From positions 1 through 10,766 of the forward strand of contig URVD01000038.1 of the NCBI GenBank assembly GCA_900551195.1: a DNA stretch of 10,766 nucleotides. The letters are read 5' to 3'. This document shows positions 58 to 10,478 of this stretch, piece after piece (positions within the stretch are counted from its first letter, which is position 1; every line of letters starts with the position of its first letter). This DNA comes from an uncultured Collinsella sp. GTDB lineage: Bacteria > Actinomycetota > Coriobacteriia > Coriobacteriales > Coriobacteriaceae. The translations under genes and the position numbers were made by a program. Below the pieces are notes generated by a model, which was not told where the DNA came from, did not search any database, and saw only the letters and a list, made by a program, of their open reading frames with translations.

Positions 58-1542
58 ATGAACACTATCCAGATCAATCCGGCCGATAACGTTATCGTCG
101 CGCTGTCGCCGCTTGCCAAGGGCGCCGCCGTCGCGGTTCCCGGGGTGGGCGAGGTCGTTGCCGCGGAGGATATTCCGCAGGGCCACAAGATGGCCGTGCG
201 TGCCATTGCGGCGGGGGAGGACGTCGTCAAGTACGGTCTTCCTATCGGCCACGTGACGGGCGACATCCAGCCCGGTCAGTGGCTTCATACGCATAACGTC
301 AAGACCAACCTTTCGGGCGAGGTCGAGTACGCTTACAAACCGACGCATCCGGTCGTTGAGCCGGTTGAGCCCGAGACCTTTATGGGCTTCCGTCGCGCCG
401 ACGGCCGCGCCGCCACGCGCAACGAGCTGTGGATCATCCCCACGGTCGGCTGCGTCAACGAGGTCGCACGTGCCATGTGCGAGCAGGCCCAGGATCTGGT
501 CGAGGGCTCGTTGGAGGGCGTTTACTACTTCCCACATCCCTTTGGCTGCTCGCAGACCGGTGCCGACCATGCCCAGACGCGCCGTCTGCTGGTGGCGCTC
601 TCGCGTCACGCAAACGCTGCGGGTGTGCTGTTCCTGTCCCTCGGTTGCGAAAACTGCACGCACCAGCAGGTACTCGACGAGCTCGGTGACTTTGATCGCG
701 AGCGCGTTCGATTCCTCGCCTGCCAGGATGTAGCCGACGAGCAGGTCGAGGGCCACAAGATTCTGTCCGAGTTGGCTGACCTGGCCAAGCAGGCCAAGCG
801 TGAGCCCATTCCGGCCTCCGAGCTGGTCATTGGCCTTAAGTGCGGCGGCTCTGACGGTCTTTCGGGCATTACCGCCAACCCCACGATCGGCCGCGTGAGC
901 GATATGGTTGTCGCCCGCGGCGGCACGTCGGTGCTCACCGAGGTTCCCGAGATGTTTGGCGCGGAGAGCATTCTGCTCGATCGCTGCGAGAGCCAGGACG
1001 TCTTTAACGCGGCGGCCGACATGCTCAACGGCTTTAAGGACTACTTCATTAGCCACGGCGAGGTCGTCTATGAGAACCCGAGTCCCGGTAACAAGGACGG
1101 CGGTATTACCACGCTCGAGGACAAGAGCTGCGGCTGCGTGCAAAAGGGCGGATCTGCCCCCATCGTCGACGTGCTGCCGTATGCCGGTCAGGCAACTAAG
1201 CACGGTCTGAACATGCTGTGCGGTCCGGGCAACGACATGGTATCCACCACGGCCCTGACGGCTGCCGGCTGCCACGTGATCCTGTTCTCGACCGGCCGCG
1301 GCACGCCGTTTGGCGCGCCGGCGCCCACGCTCAAGGTGTTCACCAACCAGCGTCTGTGCGACCACAAGGCCAACTGGATGGACTTTAACGCCGGCGTGGT
1401 CGCCACCGGCGAGCGCACGCTCGACGAGGCTGCCCACGACCTGTACCAGCTGGTGCTGGAGTGTGCGAGCGGTAGGCTTACAAGTGCCGAGCGCCGCGGC
1501 TGTCACGAGATCAGCATCTGGAAGGACGGCGTCTGCCTGTAG
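58..1542 (+). CDS. uxaA: Altronate dehydratase (UxaA)
   Basis: Dehydrates D-altronate to 2-keto-3-deoxy-D-gluconate, the last step specific to the galacturonate (isomerase) pathway; cytoplasmic and iron-dependent in the known family. The 494-residue length is close to E. coli UxaA. Visible in the sequence: an N-terminal SAF-type domain (about residues 10-82, ending in HTHN at 77-80), a linker, then the large UxaA/GarD catalytic domain beginning at GFRRADGRAATRNE (110-123). Conserved cysteine/histidine blocks follow: HPFGCSQTGADHAQT (160-174), LGCENCTHQQ (195-204), GLKCGGSDGLSGITANP (259-275), DKSCGCVQKGG (355-365) and STGRGTPFGAP (411-421). The ATG at 58 matches the family N-terminus (DNVIVAL); the frame stays open to the window edge, but the residues before it look unrelated. 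A weak AGGA lies at 45-48. A strong terminator follows, so it is transcribed separately from the transporter. Its upstream partner gene is outside the window. Confidence 0.96.
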   Translation: MNTIQINPADNVIVALSPLAKGAAVAVPGVGEVVAAEDIPQGHKMAVRAIAAGEDVVKYGLPIGHVTGDIQPGQWLHTHNVKTNLSGEVEYAYKPTHPVVEPVEPETFMGFRRADGRAATRNELWIIPTVGCVNEVARAMCEQAQDLVEGSLEGVYYFPHPFGCSQTGADHAQTRRLLVALSRHANAAGVLFLSLGCENCTHQQVLDELGDFDRERVRFLACQDVADEQVEGHKILSELADLAKQAKREPIPASELVIGLKCGGSDGLSGITANPTIGRVSDMVVARGGTSVLTEVPEMFGAESILLDRCESQDVFNAAADMLNGFKDYFISHGEVVYENPSPGNKDGGITTLEDKSCGCVQKGGSAPIVDVLPYAGQATKHGLNMLCGPGNDMVSTTALTAAGCHVILFSTGRGTPFGAPAPTLKVFTNQRLCDHKANWMDFNAGVVATGERTLDEAAHDLYQLVLECASGRLTSAERRGCHEISIWKDGVCL

Positions 1543-1663: not shown

Positions 1664-1679
1664 CAATAAACGTTCACCC
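1664..1679. promoter_or_regulatory. Operator-like site A (AACGTTCACCC core)
   Basis: The sequence is CAATAAACGTTCACCC, centred on the CG at 1671/1672. The right half (CGTTCACCC) is identical to the other sites; the left half is degenerate. An extra GGTGAA half-site sits 11 bases before the TTCACC (1656-1661). It is 119 bp upstream of site B, which would suit an auxiliary DNA-looping operator. The central CG palindrome is typical of LacI-family operators; that assignment is inferred. Confidence 0.6.
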
Positions 1680-1742: not shown

Positions 1743-1771
1743 CCGTTCAGCGATGAAAAACGACCGTTCAG
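1743..1771. promoter_or_regulatory. Pair of CCGTTCAG half-sites
   Basis: CCGTTCAG occurs at 1743-1750 and again at 1764-1771, a 21-base offset (two helical turns). Each resembles one half (CGTTCA) of the operator core. They could be weak binding sites of the same regulator or chance, since the motif is short and low in information. Confidence 0.25.
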
Positions 1772-1782
1772 GGATATTATTC

Positions 1783-1798
1783 AAGTGAACGTTCACCT
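1783..1798. promoter_or_regulatory. Operator-like site B, overlapping the -35 box
   Basis: The sequence is AAGTGAACGTTCACCT. It contains a perfect 12-bp palindrome GTGAACGTTCAC (1785-1796) with central CG, the best symmetric example in the window. Its right half forms the putative -35 hexamer TTCACC (1792-1797). A LacI-type repressor bound here would block RNA polymerase. Its centre is exactly 40 bp from site C. Confidence 0.8.
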
Positions 1799-1820
1799 AT
1801 CATAAGCAATCGCGCATAAT
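1792..1820 (+). promoter_or_regulatory. Promoter of the transporter gene
   Basis: The -35 is TTCACC (1792-1797, 4/6 to TTGACA) and the -10 is CATAAT (1815-1820, 5/6 to TATAAT), with a 17-bp spacer. The predicted start point near 1827 falls inside operator C. This leaves an untranslated leader of about 95 bases before the ATG at 1922. The position between two operators supports this choice. Confidence 0.65.
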
Positions 1821-1822
1821 CT

Positions 1823-1838
1823 AGCTAAACGTTCACCC
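1823..1838. promoter_or_regulatory. Operator-like site C, over the start point
   Basis: The sequence is AGCTAAACGTTCACCC, centred at 1830/1831. The right half is conserved and the left half partly degenerate. It covers the predicted transcription start, a classical repression position, and is exactly 40 bp from site B, the same spacing as sites D and E before the GH105 gene. Confidence 0.72.
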
Positions 1839-1881
1839 TACGAGTGGGCGATATGCAGACAGACATCGGTATGGACTCCAA

Positions 1882-1898
1882 TGTCTTGTTACAAGACA
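1882..1898. repeat. 17-bp perfect inverted repeat in transporter leader
   Basis: The sequence is TGTCTTGTTACAAGACA, 8-bp arms around a single T. As RNA it could form a 7-bp stem with a TTA loop, 12 bases before the ribosome binding site. As DNA it could be an operator of a second regulator. It differs from the AACGTTCACC sites. Its function is unknown. Confidence 0.55.
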
Positions 1899-1910
1899 AT
1901 CGAGAGAAGA

Positions 1911-1917
1911 GAGGGAG
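1911..1917 (+). promoter_or_regulatory. Ribosome binding site setting the transporter start
   Basis: GAGGGAG, 4 bases before the ATG at 1922. The open frame begins earlier (GTG at 1844, ATG at 1853 and 1871), but those codons lack such a site and the upstream residues are unlike transporter N-termini, so 1922 is preferred. Confidence 0.75.
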
Positions 1918-1921
1918 CTCG

Positions 1922-3481
1922 ATGACTAATAAGATTGGAAAAAAGCGCAAAATCACATTCTGGACGCGCTTGGGCTTTGGTATGGGCGGCATGCTCAACT
2001 CCGGTGCCCTGAGCTTTACGCACAGCTACATGGTGCTGTTCCTGTCCACGGAGTGCGGCCTGTCCGCAGGCGAGGCTGCGCTGATTAGCTCGTTCGCCAT
2101 CTATCTCAACGCCATTCTTTGCCCGCTGATGGGTTTTGTGGCCGATAACTTCTATGCCACCAAGATCGGCCGCATCTTTGGTCGTCGCCGTTTCTGGATC
2201 TTGCTGGCTATCCCGATGATGGTCGCCGAGCCGCTTATCTTCGTTGCTACGCCGTTCGGTTTCCCGTACTACTTTGCGCTGTACCTGATCTACAACGTCG
2301 CGTACACATTCTGCACCGCCAACCTGTCGCCGCTTACCATCGAGATGACCGACGACTTCAAGGAGCGTACGTACCTCACCGGCTACAAGCACCTCTTTGG
2401 CAACGCTGCCGGCTTCCTGATGGCAGCACTCGTCGGCTTTGGCTTTGGCACCTTCGGCGAGACCAACCCGTTCAGCTATTTCATCATCGCTACGATCAAC
2501 GCTTCGGTCATGGCAATCTCGCTGCTCTGCGTGTACCTGTCCACGTGGGAGCACACCCCCGAGGAGGTCGCTCAGGAGAAGATCGAGAGCGTCGGCGAGG
2601 GTATCAAGAAGTTTTTCATCGACGTTATCTCTACCTTCCGCAACAAGTCCTTCCGCAAGGTCCTGTATGCACAGGTCTCCACGAAGCTCGCTGCCGCCTG
2701 CTGGTCTGCCTGCCTGTCCTTCTTCATCGTCTACTGCCTGCAGATTCCTAAGTCCTACGAGTCCGTGATGGAGATGCCCGGCAAGGTCGTCGCTATCGTC
2801 TGCACTGCCATCTGGGTCGCCCTCATGGCCAAGAAGGGCTTCCACAAGTCTTGGTACCTGGCCAACGTCGGTTGCGCTGCGTGCATCATCGCCTACAACT
2901 ACTTCGCCTTTGGTCAGATCAACGGCACCTCCACGGTCGCCATCGCCATGATCGCCTACCCCATCATCTTCGCCATCTGGAAGTTCTTCTACGTTGGCTT
3001 CCAGTATCTGCCCGATGTTCTGCTCAACTACATCCCCGATGTCGATGAGCTCATCACCCTGCGTCGCCGCGAGGGCATCTACAGCTCCGCTCAGCAGCTC
3101 TGCCAGCAGATTGCCCAGGCTGTTGCCGTCAACGTATGGGCTATCGTCCTTGCTGCCTCCGGCTTCATTCAGACCGCCGGCAACAGCGACGCCGTGACCC
3201 AGCCCGCCACCGTGCCTCTGTACATCTGCGGCTACATGCTCATCGGCTGCGCCGGCTTCTTCCTGCTCGCGGCTGTCCTTGCCCGCGGCATCAAGATCGA
3301 CAAGGAGCAGTGCGACATCCTTTGCGACGAGATTCACCGTGTCAAGGAGGGTGGCAAGATGGCCGACGTCAAGCCCGAGGTCAAGGCGCTTTGCGAGGAG
3401 CTCTCCGGCTTTAAGTACGAGGACTGCTTCGCCCACAACAATGTTGGCTTCCAGGACGGCAGCGTAATTCCCGCCGAGTAG
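1922..3481 (+). CDS. GPH-family (MFS_2) sugar/uronide:cation symporter
   Basis: A 519-residue membrane protein of the glycoside-pentoside-hexuronide:cation symporter family. About 12 hydrophobic segments can be read, roughly at 25-43, 52-72, 92-110, 114-132, 160-178, 185-205, 255-273, 288-303, 311-330, 336-357, 398-416 and 433-454. Family signatures are GRRRFWIL (87-94), the SPLTIEMTDDFKERTYL block (136-152) with acidic and arginine residues, and DVDELITLRRREG (373-385). A 60-residue cytoplasmic tail follows. Such carriers import glycosides or uronides with Na+ or H+. Next to GH28, pectin esterases, GH105 and uxaA, the likely cargo is galacturonate or short oligogalacturonides, but substrate cannot be read from sequence. 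It has its own double-operator promoter and its own terminator, so it may be expressed at a different level from the enzymes that follow. Family call sure; substrate inferred. Confidence 0.93.
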   Translation: MTNKIGKKRKITFWTRLGFGMGGMLNSGALSFTHSYMVLFLSTECGLSAGEAALISSFAIYLNAILCPLMGFVADNFYATKIGRIFGRRRFWILLAIPMMVAEPLIFVATPFGFPYYFALYLIYNVAYTFCTANLSPLTIEMTDDFKERTYLTGYKHLFGNAAGFLMAALVGFGFGTFGETNPFSYFIIATINASVMAISLLCVYLSTWEHTPEEVAQEKIESVGEGIKKFFIDVISTFRNKSFRKVLYAQVSTKLAAACWSACLSFFIVYCLQIPKSYESVMEMPGKVVAIVCTAIWVALMAKKGFHKSWYLANVGCAACIIAYNYFAFGQINGTSTVAIAMIAYPIIFAIWKFFYVGFQYLPDVLLNYIPDVDELITLRRREGIYSSAQQLCQQIAQAVAVNVWAIVLAASGFIQTAGNSDAVTQPATVPLYICGYMLIGCAGFFLLAAVLARGIKIDKEQCDILCDEIHRVKEGGKMADVKPEVKALCEELSGFKYEDCFAHNNVGFQDGSVIPAE

Positions 3482-3502
3482 GGCCAACGCATCGTCCAAA
3501 CC

Positions 3503-3549
3503 AAAGGGCCGTGCCACCGGAGATTCACCGGCGGGTGCGGCCTTTTTTT
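3503..3549 (+). terminator. Intrinsic terminator after the transporter gene
   Basis: The 5' arm (3507-3520) pairs with the 3' arm (3528-3542). The stem is GC-rich with two G-U wobbles and a small internal bulge, the loop is 7 bases, and T7 follows (3543-3549). The interrupted stem may let some transcripts through to the GH28 gene, for which no clear separate promoter is visible. Confidence 0.85.
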
Positions 3550-3582
3550 AAAAACGAGTAGTATGAACTTCTGATTACATTT

Positions 3583-3589
3583 GAGGGAG
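3583..3589 (+). promoter_or_regulatory. Ribosome binding site setting the GH28 start
   Basis: GAGGGAG, 6 bases before the ATG at 3596. A TTG at 3581 also opens this frame but overlaps this site, so the ATG is chosen. Confidence 0.8.
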
Positions 3590-3595
3590 AGACCC

Positions 3596-5191
3596 ATGGA
3601 GACGAACGTTATCTGGCGCAACGCCCGCGCGGCCGTTATCGAGCTCGACGATGGCGGCTACTTTACCTGTGCCGATACGTGGGAAATCTTTGTCAACGAT
3701 GAGCCCGCCGGCACCACGAACACGGTCGAGACCTATGTTGACGGCCTGGTTCCCGGCAAGCGCAACCTGATCCGCTTTGTCTGCGGCGAGCGCGAGCTGA
3801 GCGTGGGAGTCACCACGCCGGCCGAGCCCTTCACCATCAACGTTCGCGACTGCGGCGCCAAGGGCGATGCCGAGCACGACGACACCACCAATATCCAGGC
3901 TGCCATCATGGCCTGCCCCAAGGGCGGACGCGTGCTGATTCCCGCCGGCAGCTACCGCATCAAGTCGCTCTTCCTTAAGAGCGATATCAATATTGAGCTT
4001 GCCGAGGGCGCGGTGCTGCTGGCCCGTCACGACCGTGCGGCACTTGCCTACATTCCGGGCACGGTCACGGGCGACGAAGGCGCCGGGTATGCCGGTACCG
4101 ACATGCTGCCCCTGGGCCGCTGGGAGGGCGAGAGCTTCTCGACCTACTGCTCTACCTTTACGGGCCTGAACGTGCACGACGTGTGCATCTATGGTCGCGG
4201 CGCGATTGACGGCCAGACCGATTTTGCCGAGGACAACTGGTGGAACAAGGACTTTAAGAACATCTTCCGTCCCGAGGAGGGCCGCGAGATCGCCCGCCCG
4301 CGCATGATCTTCCTGTCCGAGTGCCAAAACGTGAGCCTTGTCGGCTTTACCGTGCGCAACAGCCCGGCGTGGAATATCCACCCCATCCTGTGCGAGTACG
4401 TCGATGCCCTGTGCCTGTCCATCGAGGGCCCCAAGAACTCTCATAACACCGACGGCTTCGACCCCGAGAGCTGCGGTTTTGTCCGCATCCTTGGCTGCCA
4501 GTTCTCGGTGGGCGACGACTGCATCGCCATCAAGAGCGGCAAACTGGGCCTTGAGTCCGAGCTTCGTCCTGCCACGCACGACGTGTTGATCTCGCACTGC
4601 TACATGCACGACGGCCATGGCGCCGTGGTGCTGGGATCGGAGGCCGCCGGCGGCATCAAGGACCTTACCGTGAGCAAGTGCCTCTTTGAGCGCACCGACC
4701 GCGGCCTGCGCGTCAAAACTCGCCGCGGTCGCGGCAAGGATGCCGTCAACGAGGGAATCACCTTTGAGCACATTCGCATGGACAAGGTGCTCACGCCCTT
4801 CGTGGTCAACTCGTTTTACTTTTGCGACAAAGACGGCAAGAGCGACTACGTGCAGTCTCGTGAGGTGCTGCCCATCGACGACCGGACGCCCGGCTTTGGC
4901 GCAACGACGTTTTGCGATATCGAGGCCACCAACTGCCATGCGGCCGCGGCCTATATCACGGGCCTGCCCGAGAGCAAGGTGACGCGCCTGACGTTCCAAG
5001 ACGTTCACGTCACCTTTGCCGACGATGCCGAGCCCTTTGTACCTGCCATGGCCTGTGGCGTGGAGCCGATGGTGCGCCAGGGCATCATTGCGCAAAACGT
5101 TGCCGTGCTCGACCTGCAAAACGTGGTGATCGAGGGTCAGGACGGTGACGAGCTGCAGCTGCAGAACGTCGACAAGGTTATCCGCGCGTAG
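3596..5191 (+). CDS. GH28 polygalacturonase-like glycoside hydrolase
   Basis: Hydrolyses alpha-1,4 galacturonosyl linkages of pectic chains (family GH28, right-handed beta-helix). The protein has 531 residues. Residues 1-80 form a short beta-rich N-terminal domain resembling the fibronectin-III-like cap of exo-polygalacturonases. The beta-helix begins at FTINVRDCGAKGDAEHDDT (79-97), the usual pectate-lyase-fold entry. All four catalytic signatures are present: NTD (284-286), GDD (306-308), GHG (340-342) and RVK (372-374). No signal peptide or membrane segment is seen at the N-terminus (METNVIWRNARAAV), so it is probably cytoplasmic and acts on imported oligomers. Exo action is more likely than endo, by the N-terminal domain and location; this is inference. 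Specificity could also be toward rhamnogalacturonan or xylogalacturonan. It is followed by the CE8 fusion gene after 131 bases containing a hairpin. Confidence 0.93.
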   Translation: METNVIWRNARAAVIELDDGGYFTCADTWEIFVNDEPAGTTNTVETYVDGLVPGKRNLIRFVCGERELSVGVTTPAEPFTINVRDCGAKGDAEHDDTTNIQAAIMACPKGGRVLIPAGSYRIKSLFLKSDINIELAEGAVLLARHDRAALAYIPGTVTGDEGAGYAGTDMLPLGRWEGESFSTYCSTFTGLNVHDVCIYGRGAIDGQTDFAEDNWWNKDFKNIFRPEEGREIARPRMIFLSECQNVSLVGFTVRNSPAWNIHPILCEYVDALCLSIEGPKNSHNTDGFDPESCGFVRILGCQFSVGDDCIAIKSGKLGLESELRPATHDVLISHCYMHDGHGAVVLGSEAAGGIKDLTVSKCLFERTDRGLRVKTRRGRGKDAVNEGITFEHIRMDKVLTPFVVNSFYFCDKDGKSDYVQSREVLPIDDRTPGFGATTFCDIEATNCHAAAAYITGLPESKVTRLTFQDVHVTFADDAEPFVPAMACGVEPMVRQGIIAQNVAVLDLQNVVIEGQDGDELQLQNVDKVIRA

Positions 5192-5228
5192 GGTAGTGCT
5201 CCTGCACAAGTGAATACGGCATGTTGAG

Positions 5229-5264
5229 GCGTGCAACGGTCGGGTCTGTCCGGCTGTTGCACGC
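5229..5264 (+). other. Strong hairpin without U-tract between GH28 and CE8 genes
   Basis: A 15-bp stem pairs 5229-5243 with 5250-5264. The outer 9 bp (GCGTGCAAC / GTTGCACGC) are perfect, the inner part has two G-U wobbles, and the loop is GTCTGT. The bases after it (ACTCTATAGG) lack a T-run, so it is not a standard intrinsic terminator. It could stabilise or process the mRNA to set unequal levels of GH28 and the esterases, or act with Rho. Confidence 0.6.
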
Positions 5265-5322
5265 ACTCTATAGGTGCCGGTATTGCATGGTGGGTGTTCT
5301 GTGACAGAAAGCGTAATGACAG

Positions 5323-7488
5323 ATGAGTGGTAAAGAACAGCTCTTTGAGGTATCGCTCGAACGCGAAGGCGCGTATCGCAGCATTTCGGCGGCGCTTGAG
5401 GCGGCGGAGCGGTGTGTGCCCGATGCGACCGTGCCGGTGCGCGTGCTGGTGGCGCCGGGCGAGTACCGCGAACAGGTCGAAATTCGTCGTCCGCATGTGA
5501 CGCTCGAGGGCGAGACGGCCGACAGCGTTCGCATTGTGGGCTGTCTGGGTGCCAAGATGCCGTCGGAGAACGGTAGCGGTCAGGATGGAAGGCTCGGCAC
5601 CTTCCGTACGTATACGGTGCTGGTCGATGCCGACGACGTGACGCTTACAGGCTTAACGATCGAAAACGACGCCGGTGACGGTCGTGAGGTCGGCCAAGTG
5701 ATTGCCCTGTATGCCGACGGCGATCGTCTGGTGGTCGATGCCTGCCGCATCCTGGGCCATCAGGACACGCTTTTTTTGGGGCCGCTGCCGCCGTACGAGG
5801 TCAAGCCGGTCGGCTTTATAGGCCCCAAGCAGTTTGCGCCGCGCCGGGTGGGGCGCCAGTATTTTCGACGTTGCCGGATCGAGGGCGACGTCGACTTTAT
5901 CTTTGGCGGTGCGCGGGCCTACTTTGAGGGGTGTGAGATTCGCTCACTCAACCGCGATATGGATGTCAACGGGTATGTAACGGCAGCTTCCACGCCTCAG
6001 GGCGAGCCGTACGGATTTGTGTTTCATGGCTGTTCGTTTACAGCCGATGAGGGCATTGCCCCCGGATCGGTCTATCTGGGTCGTCCATGGCGCGAGTGGG
6101 CCCAGACCGTTTTGCTCGAATGCTGGCTGGGCTCCCATATTTCACTCGAGGGATGGTGGGATTGGAATAAGCCAGCGGCACATGACGGCACCCTGTATGC
6201 CGGCGGTATCCTGTTTGGCCCGGCGGGTGATACTGCTGCTTGGGTGCCGTGGGCGCATTGCCTGACCGGTCAGGATTCCGAACGCTATGCGCGTGACCGA
6301 GTTCTTGCCGGCACGGATGGTTGGGATCCTGAGGGCGGCGACGGTGATGCGGTAGAGACGGCCGGGCTATCTGCCAATGGCCGCACCGTGCACATCGAGA
6401 CGTACTACGAGGACGAACCTGCGCTGCGCGCCCGACTGAAGCGCGAGGGGCGCTCGGCCGCATTTACGGGCAAGACTCCCACAGACTTTGAGGCATGGAA
6501 GGCTGCGACCAGGACTCGTCTGTACGATATTTTGGGTCTTTCGCTTATGGACCGCGCCCCGATTGAGATTCGTGAGCTCAATCGCCTGCGGGTTGCCGGC
6601 AGCATCGTGCGTACTCATGCGGTGCTGCAGGTTGAGCACGATGTGTGGATGCCGTTTTACCTGTTGGAGCCGTCCCGCCCCAAGCTTGACGAGCGGGGAC
6701 TCAAGCGCTGCTATATCTGCCCGCATGGTCACCAGGGGGCGGGTGCTGCAAGCATAGCCGGTGTTGCGGGCGTGCCGGCGGTCGACGATGCCGTGCGTAA
6801 GTTCAATTACGACTACGGTCTGCGTTTGGCGCGCATGGGTTACGTGACCGTCTGCCCCGATGCCCGCGGTTGGGGGTATCGCCGCGATTGGAAGGGCCAG
6901 GGCGACGACGAGAACAGCTACCTGCGCGGTACGTGTCTGAATCAAGCACGTATGGCCGAGCCGCTGGGTCTTACGGTCGCGGGCCTCAACGCCTGGGACA
7001 ACATGCGCTTGATTGATTACTTGGAGACACGCGGTGACATTGCCCTGGACGACCTGGGCTGCTTTGGTTTTTCGGGCGGCGGTTACATGACGTTGTACCT
7101 GGCCGCGCTCGACCCGCGCGTGCGCAAGGCGTTTGTCTCGGGCTATCTGTACGGTGTCGATGACTCGCTGCTGCATCTCAACGGCAACTGCAGTTGCAAT
7201 TACACGCCTGGACTCTGGCGTCTGCTCGATATGGGTGACATCGCCTCGCTCATCGCGCCACGGCCGTTGTTGGTCCAAAGTTGCGAAGAGGATCATCTGA
7301 ATGGGGCACGCGGGCTCAAAAATATTGACGAGCAACTCAAAATCGTGCGCGATGCCTACGAGTTGCTGGGCCGCAGAGGAGGTCTGCGGCACGAGGTGTG
7401 TCCGGGTGGACACCATCTTGGCGTGGCGCATCTTGCCGAGGATATCGAATGGCTCGATTCGCAAGTTGCAGAATGCGCCCACGCATAG
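5323..7488 (+). CDS. CE8 pectin methylesterase fused to alpha/beta-hydrolase
   Basis: One uninterrupted 721-residue frame with two enzymes. Residues 1 to about 335 are a CE8 pectin methylesterase beta-helix, removing methyl groups from homogalacturonan. It shows GQVIALY (Gln125), GHQDTLF with Gln147 and acid/base Asp148, GDVDFIFG with nucleophile Asp191, and GRPW with Arg254. Residues about 385-721 are an alpha/beta-hydrolase: oxyanion-type HGH (468-470), nucleophile elbow GFSGGG with Ser584, IAPRPLLVQS (644-653) followed by acidic EED (655-657), and His697/His698 in PGGHHLG. This resembles acetyl-xylan-esterase/dienelactone-hydrolase-like proteins, so deacetylation of pectic sugars is plausible but inferred. 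A charged linker (336-384) joins them. No signal peptide is visible. The ATG at 5323 is the first start after in-frame stops, but its ribosome binding site is weak (AGAAAG at 5306-5311). CE8 assignment is firm; the substrate of the second half is open. Confidence 0.92.
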   Translation: MSGKEQLFEVSLEREGAYRSISAALEAAERCVPDATVPVRVLVAPGEYREQVEIRRPHVTLEGETADSVRIVGCLGAKMPSENGSGQDGRLGTFRTYTVLVDADDVTLTGLTIENDAGDGREVGQVIALYADGDRLVVDACRILGHQDTLFLGPLPPYEVKPVGFIGPKQFAPRRVGRQYFRRCRIEGDVDFIFGGARAYFEGCEIRSLNRDMDVNGYVTAASTPQGEPYGFVFHGCSFTADEGIAPGSVYLGRPWREWAQTVLLECWLGSHISLEGWWDWNKPAAHDGTLYAGGILFGPAGDTAAWVPWAHCLTGQDSERYARDRVLAGTDGWDPEGGDGDAVETAGLSANGRTVHIETYYEDEPALRARLKREGRSAAFTGKTPTDFEAWKAATRTRLYDILGLSLMDRAPIEIRELNRLRVAGSIVRTHAVLQVEHDVWMPFYLLEPSRPKLDERGLKRCYICPHGHQGAGAASIAGVAGVPAVDDAVRKFNYDYGLRLARMGYVTVCPDARGWGYRRDWKGQGDDENSYLRGTCLNQARMAEPLGLTVAGLNAWDNMRLIDYLETRGDIALDDLGCFGFSGGGYMTLYLAALDPRVRKAFVSGYLYGVDDSLLHLNGNCSCNYTPGLWRLLDMGDIASLIAPRPLLVQSCEEDHLNGARGLKNIDEQLKIVRDAYELLGRRGGLRHEVCPGGHHLGVAHLAEDIEWLDSQVAECAHA

Positions 7489-7545
7489 CCCCTCGGCATG
7501 TTGCGTATGAACGGTATGTACCTGTATGACCGCCGGTATGCGGGT

Positions 7546-7551
7546 GAGGAG
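7546..7551 (+). promoter_or_regulatory. Ribosome binding site setting the SGNH esterase start
   Basis: GAGGAG, 6 bases before the ATG at 7558. An in-frame ATG at 7498 would add 20 residues of unrelated, arginine/tyrosine-rich sequence and has no such site, so 7558 is chosen. Confidence 0.82.
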
Positions 7552-7557
7552 AAGAAT

Positions 7558-8226
7558 ATGGAAACGAAAAACTTGAGCGAATCGACCATCTGCTGCTTTG
7601 GCGATTCGACCACCTGGGGCGATAACGGATGCGGCGGGGGAGGTAACGACATCTCCTGGACCTCGCACCTGGGTGCGCTGCTGGGCGGCGCTACGGTCGA
7701 GAATTTTGGCATTAAGGGTTCGCGTATTGCCGTCAAGGCCGACCGTACCGATTCGTTTGTTGAGCGTTTGGACGGCATCGATCACGCGGCAGACATCTGC
7801 ATCGTCTTTGGCGGCGTTAACGACTTTAGCCGTAACGTGCCGCTAGGCGAGCCGGGCAGCACCGACGTGCACGAGTTCTATGGCGCGCTCGACTACCTTA
7901 TCCGCACCATCACGGCGCGCTCACCTCAGGCAAAGCTGGTGTTTATGACGCCGTGCAAGACAAGTGGTAAGCACGAGAAGGATATCCCGGCAAGCAACGA
8001 GGCCAACCGTCTGGGTCTGACGCAAGACGCCTATGTGCGCGCGATGCTGGAGGTTTGCGATCGCTACTCGGTGCCGGTGATCGACCTGTATGCGCAAAGC
8101 GGCATCAGCCCGTTTTTGCCGGAGCATCGCGAGCTCTACATGCCGGACGGTCTGCATTACAGCCCTGCCGGCTATGAGCGCCTGGCGCATCGCATTGCCG
8201 CGGCTCTCACCGCCGTTTGCCGCTAA
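7558..8226 (+). CDS. SGNH/GDSL-family esterase
   Basis: A 222-residue serine esterase of the SGNH fold. Block I is FGDSTTWG with catalytic Ser17; block II Gly51 lies in ENFGIKG; block III is FGGVNDF with Asn88; block V is DGLHYS with Asp197 and His200. All four namesake residues are present. It has no signal peptide and an unusual glycine-rich loop (GCGGGG, 24-29) just after block I. SGNH enzymes of family CE12 deacetylate rhamnogalacturonan; the pectin setting suggests an acetyl or methyl esterase on imported oligosaccharides, but the sequence alone does not assign a CE family. It starts 69 bases after the CE8 fusion gene and is probably co-transcribed with it. The downstream gene has its own promoter, so this is likely the last gene of its unit. 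Confidence 0.9.
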   Translation: METKNLSESTICCFGDSTTWGDNGCGGGGNDISWTSHLGALLGGATVENFGIKGSRIAVKADRTDSFVERLDGIDHAADICIVFGGVNDFSRNVPLGEPGSTDVHEFYGALDYLIRTITARSPQAKLVFMTPCKTSGKHEKDIPASNEANRLGLTQDAYVRAMLEVCDRYSVPVIDLYAQSGISPFLPEHRELYMPDGLHYSPAGYERLAHRIAAALTAVCR

Positions 8227-8241
8227 AAGGATGCCGTTTGC

Positions 8242-8277
8242 GGGGATTATAGGGTTAACGTTCACCCTATAATCCCC
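8242..8277. repeat. 36-bp inverted repeat with operator D at its centre
   Basis: Arms 8242-8254 (GGGGATTATAGGG) and 8265-8277 (CCCTATAATCCCC) are perfect 13-bp complements. The 10 bases between them also pair except for one mismatch (T8256/C8263). The centre, 8259/8260, is the centre of operator D. Each arm contains TATAAT (8268-8273 on +, 8246-8251 on -). It begins 15 bases after the SGNH stop codon, so the RNA hairpin could also mark the end of the upstream transcript, although no T-run follows. Confidence 0.9.
8252..8267. promoter_or_regulatory. Operator-like site D
   Basis: The sequence is GGGTTAACGTTCACCC, centred at 8259/8260. It is a 16-bp palindrome with one mismatched pair and central CG. 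It is identical to site E and shares the right half with sites A-C. It overlaps the putative -35 TTCACC (8261-8266). Confidence 0.82.
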
Positions 8278-8290
8278 TTCGCGTTACACT
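8261..8290 (+). promoter_or_regulatory. Promoter of the GH105 operon
   Basis: The -35 is TTCACC (8261-8266) and the -10 is TACACT (8285-8290, 4/6), spacer 18 bp. The predicted start near 8297 lies in operator E, giving a leader of about 36 bases. The arrangement mirrors the transporter promoter. A perfect TATAAT at 8268-8273 is an alternative -10, but no good -35 sits at the right distance. Confidence 0.5.
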
Positions 8291-8291
8291 A

Positions 8292-8307
8292 GGGTTAACG
8301 TTCACCC
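8292..8307. promoter_or_regulatory. Operator-like site E, over the start point
   Basis: The sequence is GGGTTAACGTTCACCC, identical to site D; the identity extends to 18 bp (8250-8267 and 8290-8307). Its centre is exactly 40 bp after that of D. It lies over the predicted start point and just before the ribosome binding site of the GH105 gene. Confidence 0.82.
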
Positions 8308-8332
8308 ATCAAAAACGTCAGAGGGGACAGCA

Positions 8333-9571
8333 ATGGGTTGCAATCAGATTCTGGACCGTTATATCGAGCAGTTGATCGAGACCTCTACGCCTCAGGCGCC
8401 GGCCTGGAATATCGAAAAGCTTCGCGCCGGCAAGGAGAACACCTGGAATTACATTGACGGCTGCATGATCAAGGCACTCATCGAGCTGTACGAGATCACC
8501 GGCGAGCAGCGTTACCTGACCTTCGCCGACGACTATATCGACTTCTTTGTCCAGGATGACGGCACCATCAAGCATTACGATCCCCAGGAGTACAACCTCG
8601 ACAACGTCAACGCGGGCAAAACCCTCTACAAACTCTATGACCTGGTGGGCAAGCCCAAGTACCGTGCCGCCATGGATACCATCTACCGTCAGCTCGAGAC
8701 CCAGCCGCGTACCAAAGAGGGTGTGTTTTGGCACAAAGCCGTCTACCCCAACCAGATCTGGCTCGACGGCATGTACATGGCGCAGCCGTTCTACATGCAG
8801 TACGAGCTGAGCTTCCACAACCGCCGTGCCTGCTCGGATAGCTTCCATATGTTCCAGGTGGTGCACGACCTGATGCGCAACCCCCTCAACGGCCTGTACT
8901 ATCACGCCTACGACGCGAGCCGCAAGCAGTTCTGGTGCGATCCCGTCACCGGCCTTTCGGCCAACTTCTGGCTGCGCGCCGAGGGCTGGTTCGCCATGGC
9001 GCTCATCGATACCTGGGAGCTCATGCCGCCCTCGATGTCGGCCGAGAAGGACGAGATCCGCAAGATGTTCCACGACCTGATCGACGCCATGCTGCCGTAT
9101 CAGGACGAGAAGACCGGTATGTGGCACCAGGTCATCAACCTGCCCAATATCGCCCCCAACTATCTGGAGGAGTCGGGCAGCGCCATCTTTGCCAACGCCA
9201 TCATGAAGGGCGTGCGCCTGGGCGTGCTGGGCGAGCGCTACTACCAGTACGGCCGCCGTGCGTTTGACGGCATCTGCGACACGTGCCTGTCCGAGCGCGA
9301 CGGACAGCTGGCGCTCGACAACATCTGCCTGGTGGCGGGTCTTGGCAACACCGCGCACCGCGAGGGCACGTTTGGCTACTACATGAGCGAGCCCGTCGTC
9401 AAAAACGACGCGAAGGGCGTGGCGCCGCTGGTGCTCGCCTATATCGAGACTATGCATCATGACAAGTTGGCCGGTAAGCGCGATCCGCTCGCCCCTTCGG
9501 GCGTGTGCTCCATCGATGACCCGTTTGGCGGCTACACGCCGGGCATCAATGCTCATAAGGGGCGTGAATAG
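8333..9571 (+). CDS. GH105 unsaturated galacturonyl/rhamnogalacturonyl hydrolase
   Basis: A 412-residue (alpha/alpha)6-barrel hydrolase of family GH105 (YteR/YesR type), which removes the 4,5-unsaturated uronic acid left at the non-reducing end of pectin fragments by lyases, releasing 5-keto-4-deoxyuronate. Visible signatures are YNLDNVNAGK (87-96) with Asp90 and VYPNQIWLDGMYMAQPF (137-153) with Asp145, matching Asp88 and Asp143 of YteR as known for the family, and His134. Aromatic residues along the barrel are conserved in style. No signal peptide is present, like the cytoplasmic family members. The start at 8333 has GAGGGG (8321-8326) six bases upstream. It is first in an operon under operators D/E and is followed after one base by the TIM-barrel gene. 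Whether the partner sugar is galacturonate or rhamnose cannot be told. Confidence 0.93.
   Translation: MGCNQILDRYIEQLIETSTPQAPAWNIEKLRAGKENTWNYIDGCMIKALIELYEITGEQRYLTFADDYIDFFVQDDGTIKHYDPQEYNLDNVNAGKTLYKLYDLVGKPKYRAAMDTIYRQLETQPRTKEGVFWHKAVYPNQIWLDGMYMAQPFYMQYELSFHNRRACSDSFHMFQVVHDLMRNPLNGLYYHAYDASRKQFWCDPVTGLSANFWLRAEGWFAMALIDTWELMPPSMSAEKDEIRKMFHDLIDAMLPYQDEKTGMWHQVINLPNIAPNYLEESGSAIFANAIMKGVRLGVLGERYYQYGRRAFDGICDTCLSERDGQLALDNICLVAGLGNTAHREGTFGYYMSEPVVKNDAKGVAPLVLAYIETMHHDKLAGKRDPLAPSGVCSIDDPFGGYTPGINAHKGRE
9557..9562 (+). promoter_or_regulatory. Ribosome binding site inside the GH105 3' end
   Basis: AAGGGG, 10 bases before a GTG at 9573, inside the last codons of the GH105 gene. It supports a GTG start one base after the GH105 stop. 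An in-frame ATG at 9549 has no comparable site upstream. Confidence 0.6.
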
Positions 9572-9572
9572 C

Positions 9573-10478
9573 GTGGGGGCCATTACTCCGGGCGTGCGTT
9601 TACACGACCTTCCGCAGGGGACCGTCGAGGAACGCATTCGCATGGCAGGAGAGCTGGGCTTTTCGTGCATTCAGCTGCCGAGCAAGGTGCTCTACGCATC
9701 AATGGGAATCGATCGATGCGGTCTGACCCGCGAGCTCGCCGAGCATTTGCGTGCGGTGCTCGATGAGGCGGGCGTTTCGGTCGCCGTGCTCGGCTGTTAT
9801 AAGAATCTGGCGACGCCCGATCGACAACAGCTCACGGATAACTTTGCCGAGTACGAGGCGTGCTTGAACTTTGCTCAGATGCTCGGCGGCTGTCCGGTTG
9901 GCACCGAGACCGGTCGTCCCAATGCGCAGAACTGCGTTGCTGACGACCGTATGACCGACGAGGCACTCGATGCGTTTATGGATGGACTCGCGCGCGTCTG
10001 CGAGTGCGCCGAGGCCGTGGGTGGGCAAATACTGATCGAGCCCGGCTGGAACGAGACGGTCAACACGCCAGATCGCTGCCGTGAGGTGCTGGAGCGCGTC
10101 CCGAGCCCGGCGCTCGGCGTGATCTACGACCCGGTGTCGCTGCTGCATCCCAGCGTCGTTGGCGAGGCGCAGGAAATCACCGCGCGTATGCTCTACTTAT
10201 GCGGCAGTAAGATTCGCGTGCTGCACGCCAAGGATTTTGAGGTCGTCGACAACGAGGACGAAGCCGGCTGGTGCGATGGTACGGGTTCTCGCCTGGTGTG
10301 CCACGGCGTGGGCGAGACGGGCCGCTATGACTTTGAGCCCGTGGTGGCCTGGGCGGCTGCCGCCTGTTCGGGGATTCCTTGTGTGGTCGAGAACAGCGTG
10401 CCGGCGACGGCGGCTAGCTGCCTGGCGACACTCGAGCGCATGTCCGCTCGCTGCGGGGCTCCGCATCGCGAGATATAG
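9573..10478 (+). CDS. Sugar isomerase/epimerase-like TIM-barrel protein
   Basis: A 301-residue member of the xylose-isomerase-like TIM-barrel superfamily (AP endonuclease 2 fold; sugar phosphate isomerases/epimerases). The four divalent-metal ligands at the ends of the barrel strands are visible: Glu156 in LIEPGW, Asp186 in IYDPVSLL, His218 in VLHAKDF and Glu273 in VVENS. An acidic insert (226-235) follows the histidine strand. These proteins interconvert keto- and aldo-sugars or epimerise them, and specificity is rarely readable from sequence. Tight linkage to GH105 suggests a product of pectin breakdown, for example a deoxy-keto-uronate or tagaturonate, as substrate; this is inference. The start at GTG 9573 is preferred for its ribosome binding site and for the normal length of the family; ATG 9549 is the alternative and would add eight residues. 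It ends the operon as far as can be seen. Confidence 0.85.
   Translation: MGAITPGVRLHDLPQGTVEERIRMAGELGFSCIQLPSKVLYASMGIDRCGLTRELAEHLRAVLDEAGVSVAVLGCYKNLATPDRQQLTDNFAEYEACLNFAQMLGGCPVGTETGRPNAQNCVADDRMTDEALDAFMDGLARVCECAEAVGGQILIEPGWNETVNTPDRCREVLERVPSPALGVIYDPVSLLHPSVVGEAQEITARMLYLCGSKIRVLHAKDFEVVDNEDEAGWCDGTGSRLVCHGVGETGRYDFEPVVAWAAAACSGIPCVVENSVPATAASCLATLERMSARCGAPHREI

Follow-up and report, generated by a model that had tools for sequence, protein, structure and literature searches.

The 10,766-base stretch of Collinsella DNA analysed here (the window) carries two pairs of operator-like sites, B/C upstream of the gene for an MFS_2 family sugar transporter (MFS) and D/E upstream of a Glyco_hydro_88 family gene (GH105 in the original prediction made from this sequence, and below). 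In the explanation we favor, at a probability of roughly 85%, one LacI-family regulator binds these sites as its operators; it would be a UxaR-like galacturonate/pectin repressor whose gene directly precedes uxaC in related genomes, with paired operators lying on the -35 box and the start and freed by an inducer, and with an upstream CCGTT repeat that is probably under a global regulator. Judged from sequence and distribution, they are very probably the binding sites of one sugar-acid repressor. A single LacI-type repressor for uptake and GH105 processing had been predicted, and comparison of genomes argues strongly for it: the uxaC-type LacI, UxaC and the strict operator motif (RGTKAACGTTCACY) occur in the same 16 of 43 genus genomes, all three are absent from each of the remaining 27, and the LacI gene adjoins a third operator pair.

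Operator-like sites

The motif AACGTTCACC has five matches in the window (starts 1669, 1788, 1828, 8257 and 8297), compared with a mean of 0.01 over 200 shuffles, and is kept across all five sites, while the left arm is variable. The AACGTT cores are centred at 1671/1672 (A), 1790/1791 (B), 1830/1831 (C), 8259/8260 (D) and 8299/8300 (E), so that the B–C and D–E distances are both exactly 40 bp, as originally described. All are even palindromes with a central CG, in keeping with LacI-family sites. Relative to the ATG codons at 1922 and 8333, the centres of B, C, D and E lie about 131, 91, 73 and 33 bp upstream. Site A, about 250 bp before its ATG, is outside the range used in the position test for LacI-family regulons; its distance from B (118–121 bp) is kept in 13/13 loci. 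It may be an auxiliary operator, and looping via this site is possible.

The regulator gene and the distribution of the motif

The comparison covered 43 genomes of the genus and 65 of the family (6 genera). The near relatives of the window carry the names Collinsella aerofaciens or Collinsella sp., and the nearest genome compared (G001) has 82% of sampled 31-letter words in common with it. The set also includes C. tanakaei An791 (G020), C. tanakaei YIT 12063 (G039) and C. vaginalis (G043). For the MFS and GH105 promoters, 13 loci were available (12 genomes and the window), and for the uxaC promoter, 16 genomes.

The window holds no regulator gene, as had been noted, and the neighbouring LacI-family gene that the prediction suggested looking for is present before uxaC in relatives, a few kb upstream. 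In G001, it occupies 2155575-2156654, some 3.5–4.6 kb beyond the equivalent of the window, and is followed, in order, by uxaC, uxaB, uxaA and the genes of the window; the third operator pair (38 bp) lies upstream of uxaC. The encoded protein matches PF00356 with 38.1 bits (cut-off 27) and Peripla_BP_4 with 77.3, i.e. it has a helix-turn-helix (HTH) above the cut-off and a sugar-binding domain, and is linked to the sites in relatives, as a LacI-family regulator should be. The full order from LacI through uxaCBA to the window genes is found in 12 of 16 loci examined; the stretches examined of G024, G039 and G043 have LacI and uxaCBA only, and that of G020 has LacI and a partial uxaC match. A genome-wide search found the GH105 protein in 12 of the 43 genus genomes, the same 12 that have the full order.

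The reversed RGTKAACGTTCACY control gave no match in any of the 43 genus genomes. The operator-pair pattern was found in 15 of them (control, 0), the sixteenth motif-bearing genome being C. tanakaei An791, where one core of the pair is changed. A genome scan had been proposed, and in G001 it places all six distinct strict sites within a uronate/pectin region of about 19 kb (2157009-2175977). The segment of the recognition helix, S-I/V-N-T-V-H-K-A, is nearly unchanged among the LacI proteins, those of C. tanakaei and C. vaginalis being 51–56% identical to that of G001, and the operator motif is also kept in these species. In G039 and G043, the LacI gene is itself preceded by operator-like sites, which are partly degenerate.

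A further operator (L024 9970; G001 2175964-2175977) is found upstream of a short-chain dehydrogenase gene, the product of which scores over the cut-off of a gluconate 5-dehydrogenase model. Near this gene, an operator lies within 3 kb of a GntR-family gene in 6 of 10 genomes examined.

Promoters and the proposed switch

The prediction had placed a TTCACC -35 box at the first operator of each pair and the start within the second. Operators B and D do overlap TTCACC, and starts inferred at 7 nt after the -10 box fall inside C and E. The MFS promoter (TTCACC-17-CATAAT) is one of three promoter-like matches in 1500-2000, with 9/12 consensus matches (shuffle mean, 0.3), and the GH105 promoter (TTCACC-18-TACACT) has 8/12 by hand count; -10 boxes were measured in the window and in G001. 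The idea that a promoter cassette was recently duplicated is not supported: the inter-operator stretches of the three G001 promoters match at 4, 9 and 5 of 22 positions unshifted, and at no more than 9–11 of 22 even with a shift of up to 3.

If the two operators of a pair cover the -35 box and the start point, respectively, repressor bound to both in the absence of inducer (galacturonate or a derivative) would shut the promoter. Release by the inducer would switch on the target groups in a coordinated manner, namely catabolism (uxaCBA), uptake and depolymerisation (MFS-GH28-pectinesterase-GDSL) and oligomer processing (GH105-TIM), and a CCGTT repeat located 46–48 bp before operator 1 would combine global with specific control.

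The upstream CCGTT repeat

Each pair is preceded by a direct repeat, CCGTT-N16-CCGTT (CCGTTCAGCGATGAAAAACGACCGTT at MFS and CCGTTTGCCGCTAAAAGGATGCCGTT at GH105), with a run of A between the repeats at both. Measured to the centre of operator 1, it lies at 47 bp (MFS) and 46 bp (GH105) in 13/13 loci each, one MFS copy having one mismatch, and upstream of uxaC at 48 bp in 13 genomes and 47 bp in G039, i.e. in 14/16. When at most one mismatch is tolerated, the genus genomes contain 293 matches to the pattern (reversed control, 17), or about 7 per genome; 38 of the 293 are the promoters from which the pattern was derived (14 uxaC, 12 MFS and 12 GH105). Across the 65 family genomes there are 382 matches (control, 29), with 63 genomes and all six genera positive.

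Of the 11 sites in G001, eight are, by our own reading, correctly oriented before a gene start; two are placed otherwise, and the remaining one is ambiguous. The genes behind the eight are uxaC, MFS, GH105, a phosphotransferase system (PTS) EIIC, an antiterminator, argG, a pyridoxal phosphate (PLP) enzyme and one without a Pfam match. The same genome encodes two LytTR regulators beside histidine kinases and has a third LytTR gene; a search for autoregulation that tolerated 2 mismatches found no element within 18 kb of sequence around two of these genes or 10 kb around the remaining one. The repeat is similar to what we take to be the general LytTR consensus and the E. coli BtsR site. It is probably read by a more global regulator, the leading candidate being a response regulator of the LytTR type. 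More tentatively, CCGTT-N16-CCGTT could define a new regulon of a global LytTR-type two-component regulator throughout the family (presumably Coriobacteriaceae), with the pectin promoters acting as composite gates where a global signal and the galacturonate LacI meet at fixed distances. As a lead to a global regulator, this widespread element beside the operators is of more interest than the claim about spacing.

The palindrome around operator D

Operator D sits in the middle of a 36-bp near-perfect palindrome. In an alignment of the 13 loci, which form 8 distinct rows, pairing holds in 99.1% of pair cells, and 2 of 14 pairs are changed on both sides. The count of such double-changed pairs is not above shuffles (194/500 reach it), but two other measures are (0/500 reach them), namely the number of double-changed cells and the covariation score. 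Template-directed correction of the palindrome would produce the same pattern of paired changes. Folded as RNA, the palindrome gives -25.4 kcal/mol (z -6.4), and since it follows the stop codon of the GDSL gene, termination or protection of the upstream transcript may be a further role. A 3' hairpin of that transcript overlapping the promoter is possible.

Operator spacing and alternative explanations

Several observations weigh against the proposed LacI regulon or parts of it. The LacI gene beside the window is taken from relatives, because the window's own assembly lies outside the compared set, and the co-occurrence of LacI, UxaC and motif tracks gene content and descent and is no proof of binding. 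Of the 13 matches to the looser AACGTTCACC in G001, nine fall in the uronate/pectin region and four elsewhere (reversed control, 2). A consensus promoter scan of 8100-8400 reported none, the GH105 promoter included, and given this and its 8/12 matches, that promoter is the weaker call; the G039 and G043 pairs have no good -10 box by eye. In C. tanakaei An791 it is the second site that has the changed core, and upstream of uxaC in both this genome and C. vaginalis, no CCGTT element was found at up to 2 mismatches. LytTR proteins are encoded by all 43 genus genomes, including the two that lack the element. A Coriobacteriia metagenome-assembled genome contig (L182, 12.7 kb) carries a LacI relative of 58% identity but lacks uxaC, and the two stretches scanned beside this gene contain no good operator.

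The original prediction suggested that a spacing of exactly 40 bp was selected, and staked this on its being kept in relatives that have the genes. Alignment of such relatives shows that it is not kept: it is 38, 39, 40, 41 or 42 bp depending on promoter and lineage, and differs again in two loci outside Collinsella. The MFS pair is at 40 bp in 13/13 loci, and the D/E pairs of the window and G001 reach 40 bp by lacking different single bases relative to a 41-bp form (our own reading of the alignment), both of which would suit selection of the distance itself, by cooperative contact or bending of two dimers at a fixed helical phase. Against this, the GH105 pair is at 41 bp in the remaining 11 of 13 loci, and the uxaC pair is at 38 bp in 13 of 16 genomes and at 39, 41 and 42 bp in G020, G039 and G043, respectively, a 4-bp range that exceeds one third of a helical turn. 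In Olsenella sp. Marseille-P4559, the genes are kept, and uxaC, uxaB and MFS have one operator each; the uncultured actinobacterium hRUG864 also keeps them, with one operator each at uxaC and uxaB and a 21-bp pair at MFS. In both, no operator was found before GH105 in the stretch scanned. Intersite distances of LacI regulators elsewhere also peak at other values (13, 22 and 32 bp, as reported in PMC4052901). Selection for 40 bp is accordingly improbable. Since the spacing differs among promoters and relatives, the exact value is no design constant and is largely a coincidence; the regularity seen in one genome dissolves once relatives are compared. A range of 38–42 bp would follow from the -35-to-start distance if both of these elements have to be covered, each by its own operator.

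The sites could instead be bound by another conserved LacI, a KdgR-like neighbour of kdgK-eda, or by both proteins. This LacI is present in 24 genus genomes, among them all 16 that bear the motif, which also counts against our assignment, and in C. tanakaei An791 there is, by our own reading, an operator-like site just before a LacI-type gene resembling its relative. However, the eight genomes that have it without the uxaC-type LacI contain no strict motif genome-wide, and its neighbourhood lacks an operator in seven of these eight (two of the stretches end at contig ends), compared with an operator present in 6 of 10 genomes examined that do have the uxaC-type protein; in G005, a strict site lies about 1 kb outside the stretch examined. 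The helix segments also differ, SPATVSRYL as against SINTVHKAL. With the strict motif absent wherever the uxaC-type LacI is absent, the kdgK-eda neighbour is disfavored as the binder and is an unlikely candidate. Least probable is that the same LacI uses the CCGTT repeats as additional half-operators, with no separate regulator. While GTTCA is common to the repeat and the operator arm, and the second CCGTT lies only about 25 bp before operator 1, the element occurs in 41 of the 43 genus genomes, including 25 of the 27 that do not have this LacI, and in 63 of the 65 family genomes, and it precedes unrelated genes in G001.

Genes of the window

The positions of genes and sites are given in Table 1. 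By their Pfam families, the window genes are placed in pectin and uronate use. None of the window proteins reaches the cut-off of an NCBIfam model, but the neighbouring uronate isomerase and tagaturonate reductase of G001 score over their model cut-offs, and so the pathway points to galacturonate. A terminator-like stem of 15 pairs (1576-1609) follows the UxaA gene.

Table 1. Genes, operator-like sites and promoter elements of the window.
Feature	Position	Strand	Remarks
Galactarate/altronate dehydratase family protein (UxaA)	58..1542	+	Pfam; in relatives, downstream of uxaC and uxaB, behind the third operator pair
Operator-like site A, CAATAAACGTTCACCC	1664..1679	+	119 bp upstream of B
Direct repeat CCGTT-N16-CCGTT, CCGTTCAGCGATGAAAAACGACCGTT (LytTR-like)	1743..1768	+	First base 47 bp before centre of B
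Operator B, AAGTGAACGTTCACCT	1783..1798	+	Overlaps putative -35
Putative MFS promoter	1792..1820	+	-35 1792-1797, -10 1815-1820, spacer 17
Operator C, AGCTAAACGTTCACCC	1823..1838	+	Over presumed start; 40 bp from B in 13/13 loci
MFS_2 family sugar transporter	1922..3481	+	Pfam; GPH model matched below its cut-off
GH28 (polygalacturonase-like) hydrolase	3596..5191	+	Pfam; no NCBIfam cut-off reached
Pectinesterase domain, then alpha/beta-hydrolase domain	5323..7488	+	Pfam
GDSL-type esterase/lipase family protein	7558..8226	+	Pfam
Second direct repeat, CCGTTTGCCGCTAAAAGGATGCCGTT	8213..8238	+	Overlaps end of GDSL gene; first base 46 bp before centre of D
Near-perfect palindrome, 36 bp	8242..8277	.	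Operator D in middle; double-sided changes at two arm pairs in relatives
Operator D, GGGTTAACGTTCACCC	8252..8267	+	Overlaps putative -35
Putative GH105 promoter	8261..8290	+	-35 8261-8266, -10 8285-8290, spacer 18
Operator E, GGGTTAACGTTCACCC	8292..8307	+	Over presumed start; 40 bp from D in window and G001, 41 in 11/13 loci
Glyco_hydro_88 family protein (GH105)	8333..9571	+	Pfam
Xylose-isomerase-like TIM barrel protein	9573..10478	+	Pfam

Comparison with known systems

No Collinsella pectin/galacturonate regulon is described in the literature titles and abstract openings covered, most subscription journals being outside that coverage, and the proposal made here supplies a testable one for how this human gut genus uses pectin and galacturonate. 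The CCGTT element conforms to the LytTR site as defined in PMC4847170, i.e. two direct (or inverse) repeats of 9–11 nt with 11–13 nt between them: CCGTT to CCGTT is 21 bp, so that a repeat of 9 nt would leave a gap of 12 nt. It is like LytTR-type sites such as that of YpdB, as presented there, in the 21-bp period of its two direct repeats and in its position before the -35 box, and it differs in being a candidate only, with an average of about 7 matches per genome in the genus.

The LacI-family uronate regulons are grouped as UxaR, ExuR, KdgR and UxuR in PMC4052901, which describes the sites as even palindromes of 16–22 nt with CG in the centre, multiple sites before an operon as common (about 20% of operons), and tandem spacing peaks at 13, 22 and 32 bp. 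These peaks are a tendency rather than a requirement. Against the named groups (UxaR, KdgR, ExuR and others), the LacI matched 14 NCBIfam models, all below their cut-offs, with no equivalog or subfamily cut-off reached and the best being UriR (39.7 of 550 bits). The Collinsella system differs from these regulons in this respect, in its pairs at 38–42 bp, which fall off the reported peaks, and in the right arm being better kept than the left in the window. It resembles them in its even palindrome with a central CG, in a regulator with an HTH and a periplasmic-binding-type domain, in its uronate gene targets and in its multiple sites. As a type, it is an ordinary LacI regulon whose operators stand in tandem, but one that is now well delimited.

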